From contig CM040743.1 in assembly GCA_022829145.1 (NCBI GenBank), forward strand, positions 6,244,646 to 6,308,645: a DNA stretch of 64,000 bases, in the 5' to 3' direction. A program made the position numbers and the translations under genes. This document shows, one piece after another, positions 17,962 to 52,355 of this stretch; the stretch's first letter is position 1; the number at the start of each line of letters is the position of its first letter. This DNA is from Albula goreensis (Eukaryota; Chordata; Actinopteri; Albuliformes; Albulidae). Below the pieces are notes generated by a model, which had not been told where the DNA came from, did no database searches, and saw nothing but the letters and a program-made list of their open reading frames with translations.

Positions 17962-52355
<34,394 letters not shown>

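Follow-up and report, generated by a model that had tools for sequence, protein, structure and literature searches.

The window, by which we mean the whole 64,000-nucleotide stretch of Albula goreensis DNA that was analysed, contains an epc1 gene on the + strand whose 14 exons, rebuilt from the sequence, run from an ATG at 17962 to a TAG at 52353-52355. Exon 1 with the start codon (17962-18114) is followed by exons 2 (34037-34196), 3 (40128-40273), 4 (40688-40894), 5 (41382-41530), 6 (43517-43669), 7 (43991-44149), 8 (44258-44347), 9 (44483-44631), 10 (45824-46173), 11 (49647-49765), 12 (50187-50340), 13 (50806-51235) and 14 (52283-52355). Start and stop codons are intact and all 13 introns have GT-AG borders, yet the joined exons amount to 2,492 nt, which is 2 modulo 3. 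A perfect (TG)n tract of 109 bases (54.5 copies; 33879-33987) ends 49 bases 5' of exon 2, and variation in its length could influence epc1 splicing.

The rest of the window was scanned for a second gene that could serve as a control of assembly quality, with a codon usage model trained on epc1. The model was applied to 758 open segments, 38 aa or longer, from all six frames, after segments that overlapped epc1 exons or were of low complexity had been dropped. The best of these scored 28.5, whereas the 14 epc1 exons themselves range from 5 to 76, and by eye none of the best 25 of the 758 resembled a known protein. This top segment is an antisense open frame of 140 residues just 5' of exon 1 (17408-17830), which probably reflects the composition of a GC-rich promoter region. 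No Rfam family reached its gathering score in the window and ARAGORN found no tRNA there. The sequence CCGCCATGTTGG at 17716-17727, 5' of the epc1 start codon, resembles a YY1 site, and GGTTCAAATCC (42990-43000) and GGTTTGAACC (43248-43260) resemble the B box of tRNA-derived SINEs.

The protein encoded by epc1 is recognizable along its length, although not in one uninterrupted frame, as the sequence as assembled is broken in exon 6. The first piece contains the EPL1 domain (PF10513; 54.6 bits against a cut-off of 25.4) and the piece in the downstream frame contains the E_Pc_C domain (PF06752; 295 bits against a cut-off of 25), the Pfam match to which starts at about exon 11. Against the chains of solved structures, the first piece aligns over residues 1-302 to the same residues of human EPC1, gap-free (E 2.4e-175; 266/302 identical), and the second piece, from its third residue, aligns to human EPC1 306-813 (isoform 2) with an E value of 4.7e-188, so that the match to EPC1 on both sides of the break is far beyond chance. 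The best structure matches of both pieces are named enhancer of polycomb homolog 1, and no EPC2-named chain is among the matches listed, so the comparison is one with EPC1 and not one between EPC1 and EPC2. None of 61 pattern matches in prokaryotic contigs and not the single one in viral contigs was confirmed as a relative of the 303-residue piece, as expected of collections that are prokaryotic and viral. Identity to human EPC1 falls from 251/272 over residues 1-272 to 15/30 over residues 273-302, and the break therefore lies in a less conserved stretch.

Translation bears out the first-pass annotation in that the frame carried from exons 1-5 stops at a TGA (43611-43613, + strand) after 303 codons, the stop being codon 304, and in that the adjacent frame of exon 6 continues the EPC1 sequence and stays open through exons 7-14 to the normal TAG at 52353-52355. 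The EPC1-like part of this downstream frame begins at 43607 and extends for 528 residues. Among 36 stop-free placements of the switch point, aligned to human EPC1, the three with the highest scores (199, 198 and 194) have the first frame ending at 43610, 43607 and 43604 respectively, which sets the best-fit interval of the break at 43604-43610. The break site is the CC within GTCCGC, and here the earlier description fails, as the short C run that it had invoked is only two Cs long, while 36 coding homopolymers of 4-7 bases in epc1, including a G7 in exon 6 itself, are all in open frame. For both of these reasons the run is no argument for a sequencing error.

The same annotation had called this a one-base break in an exon of 153 nt where 154 would fit. 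The frame break, the length of 153 nt and the reasoning modulo 3 hold; the loss of exactly one base is unproven, since 157 nt fits as well, the human protein being one residue longer beside the break. Human residues 303-305 fall between the two aligned pieces, and in the best alignment the fish is one residue short there. A second one-residue gap relative to human EPC1 lies about 20 residues past the break; length thus varies ordinarily in this stretch and a four-base deletion is not required. On these alignments either the loss of one base combined with ordinary length variation, or a longer ancestor that lost four bases, would fit.

Apart from this break, the 14 exons and 13 introns of epc1 showed no other frame break or premature stop, and no splice dinucleotide was missing. 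In a neutral simulation of the remaining coding sequence together with its start codon, stop codon and splice dinucleotides, with an assumed transition bias and indel rate, the probability of no further visible lesion was 0.17 at 0.5% divergence and 0.03 at 1%. Together with the absence of a second lesion this disfavours neutral divergence above about 1%, and with it an old pseudogene. On this evidence the gene is functional and under selection, or was so until very recently.

The most likely explanation, and one that we hold to be quite probable, is that the frame break is a consensus error in an ordinary functional epc1. On this view the assembled exon 6 would lack, at about 43604-43610, either a single base or some other number of bases that leaves a remainder of one on division by three; the animal itself would have the complete sequence, the loss having occurred when the consensus was called, and the reads would carry the full frame. 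We favour this reading because there is only one break, because both of its flanks are strongly collinear with EPC1 and because indels are common in unpolished long-read sequence. The window has no N bases, which together with the perfect 109-base (TG)n suggests a long-read assembly. For assemblies of continuous long reads, the VGP describes a per-base quality of Q30-35 before polishing, with short indels as the commonest error and frameshifts as their result (PMC8081667). In 2,492 coding bases one would then expect, counting errors of every kind, 2.5 at Q30 and 0.8 at Q35, 0.25 at Q40 and 0.025 at Q50. The gnomAD paper expected sequencing and annotation errors to be over-represented among loss-of-function variants that appear homozygous, true ones being rare (PMC7334197). 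In four earlier vertebrate assemblies, one of them of a fish, about 26-60% of genes are described as showing a false loss of some kind, frameshift being one of eight kinds; the same account places premature stops among the least frequent false losses and finds far fewer frameshifts in Illumina-based assemblies (PMC9516821), both of which count against an error here, so the sequencing method matters. The first-pass annotation had favoured an error or a recent allele, and the lack of any other frame or stop lesion, the simulation and the published consensus quality all support that choice.

Two further observations count against an error, namely that the break lies outside any homopolymer whereas the G7 of exon 6 is in frame, and that at Q50 or better the expected number of errors would be 0.025 or less. 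Residual errors of long-read assemblies are placed mostly in homopolymers by one account, which states this for bacterial assemblies (PMC8812927). Since the break is not in a homopolymer, an error of the homopolymer type is less likely, and a real allele finds its strongest argument here. The random indels of an older long-read consensus, by comparison, need no homopolymer.

A real and recent loss-of-function allele, heterozygous or fixed, produced by a one- or four-base deletion and covered by other epc genes, is the next most likely explanation, one for which the sequence context of the break speaks, and we regard it as unlikely. The four-base form would fit the extra human residue right after the break, although the nearby second one-residue gap explains the difference in length from human without it. 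Cover by other genes is plausible in that zebrafish has epc1a, epc1b and epc2, and single and double mutants of epc1a and epc2 are described as having mild embryonic delay and no obvious morphological defects, together with blood stem cell defects, with epc1b expression raised in the epc1a and epc2 single mutants (PMC10910311); a fish could thus carry such an allele. Set against this are the frequency of indel errors in unpolished long-read drafts (PMC8081667) and the lack of a second lesion in epc1. Moreover, as a general matter, loss-of-function alleles are rare for any one gene.

The shortage could also be real but harmless, if an upstream donor within exon 6 or a downstream acceptor restored the frame and gave a protein of 788-825 residues with an altered or shortened stretch after the acetyltransferase-binding part; this we consider very improbable. 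An open frame is regained with each of the 5 GT donors that were tested upstream of the stop in exon 6, with acceptors at 43531, 43618 and 43630, and with 16 of the 40 contiguous skips of whole exons in which exon 6 is left out; the smallest of these 16 skips removes exons 5 and 6. A phase match is, however, expected of any GT that starts a codon. Splice sites were scored by leave-one-out for natural sites and with the full matrix of 13 for alternatives. Three of the exon 6 donors score 4.5-5.0, compared with 4.5 for the natural, weak donor of that exon, but 5-7% of 1,172 GTs in intron 1 equal these three best donors. The natural exon 6 acceptor scores 10.6 as against 2.4, 3.0 and -9.1 for the three restoring acceptors, and 10-12% of 1,007 intron-1 AGs reach or exceed the scores of the better two, so that sites of this kind arise often by chance; in exon 5, on the other hand, the natural acceptor scores only -0.3, so a low score is compatible with use. 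A second AG lies 14 bases beyond the natural acceptor of exon 6 (43517-43530); its use would leave 825 residues in an open frame, about 25 of them changed, and its score of 2.4 is weak. The AG 6 bases past that acceptor scores 8.8 and does not restore the frame. Also in favour of this reading, a predicted unstructured segment, 140 residues long, is described as connecting the HAT part of EPC1 to the rest in the human complex (PMC11995519). Within exon 6 there are also 22 frame-restoring GT..AG pairs that span the stop, 20-113 nt apart, which were set aside as mostly too short, ordinary introns being longer than most of them.

An older pseudogene copy of epc1 would account for the stop itself, but the presence of introns rules out a retrocopy, and the intactness of the rest of the gene, with the limit of about 1% on neutral divergence, makes this reading very improbable. 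Programmed -1 frameshifting at the break, which would give the full protein, agrees with the direction required and with the open downstream frame, but by eye no slippery heptamer, the motif being X XXY YYZ, is present at GTCCGCTGA; we know of no case of programmed frameshifting in EPC genes, and we give this reading almost no credence.

Should the break be real after all, its consequences follow from the anatomy of the gene, as the earlier annotation had proposed: the C-terminal half would be lost and the mRNA would be a target of nonsense-mediated decay. Eight exon junctions lie downstream of the TGA at 43611-43613, the nearest at 56 nt and the next at 215, so decay is expected under the usual junction rule. 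Any protein that was made would retain the stretches that match solved yeast Epl1 chains and would lack what follows them; the earlier annotation had predicted that nearly all of EPcA would be kept. A review describes the N-terminal EPcA domain as contacting the other piccolo subunits and the C-terminus as connecting these with the remainder of NuA4 (PMC7047200). Within the human complex, residues 457-464 of EPC1 are reported to anchor the acetyltransferase module on EP400 and DMAP1, for which EPC1 1-464 is sufficient (PMC11995519). The four tether arginines are kept in the fish, in codons that start at 44609, 44612, 44621 and 44630; exon 9 encodes the equivalents of human R457, R458 and R461 and the first two bases of that of R464, whose codon is split over exons 9 and 10. 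All of them lie past the stop, and the truncated product would therefore be an untethered core. A real lesion would then offer a natural experiment on whether the acetyltransferase core functions when untethered from the TIP60 complex, though none of the present findings calls for one. It is conceivable, if highly doubtful, that the short exon is fixed and epc1 split in function. The gene would then supply a 303-residue subunit of the acetyltransferase core, free of TIP60/EP400, or else, by splicing, a full protein with a shortened linker, while another epc gene provides the tethered form. For annotation the consensus error that we prefer carries a caution of its own, since with one base missing a conserved chromatin gene would come out of a pipeline truncated, split or flagged.

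With the false frameshifts of draft vertebrate assemblies the epc1 case shares a single short indel in a gene that is otherwise open; those false losses were checked against reads, whereas the present one is read from the assembled sequence alone, and most of them were of other kinds. Human EPC1 (PDB 8xvg and 8qr1) is collinear with both pieces of the fish protein and has the same four tether arginines, and differs in that the fish reading frame is interrupted at the place that corresponds to the interval between human residues 302 and 306, where the fish is also one residue shorter. The 303-residue product is in turn comparable to yeast Epl1, solved chains of which match its residues 4-132 (5j9q) and 168-275 (5j9t), and by analogy it would resemble a free piccolo-type core, with the difference that piccolo forms naturally in yeast, as a subcomplex encoded by an intact set of genes, whereas the fish core would be the product of a broken frame.
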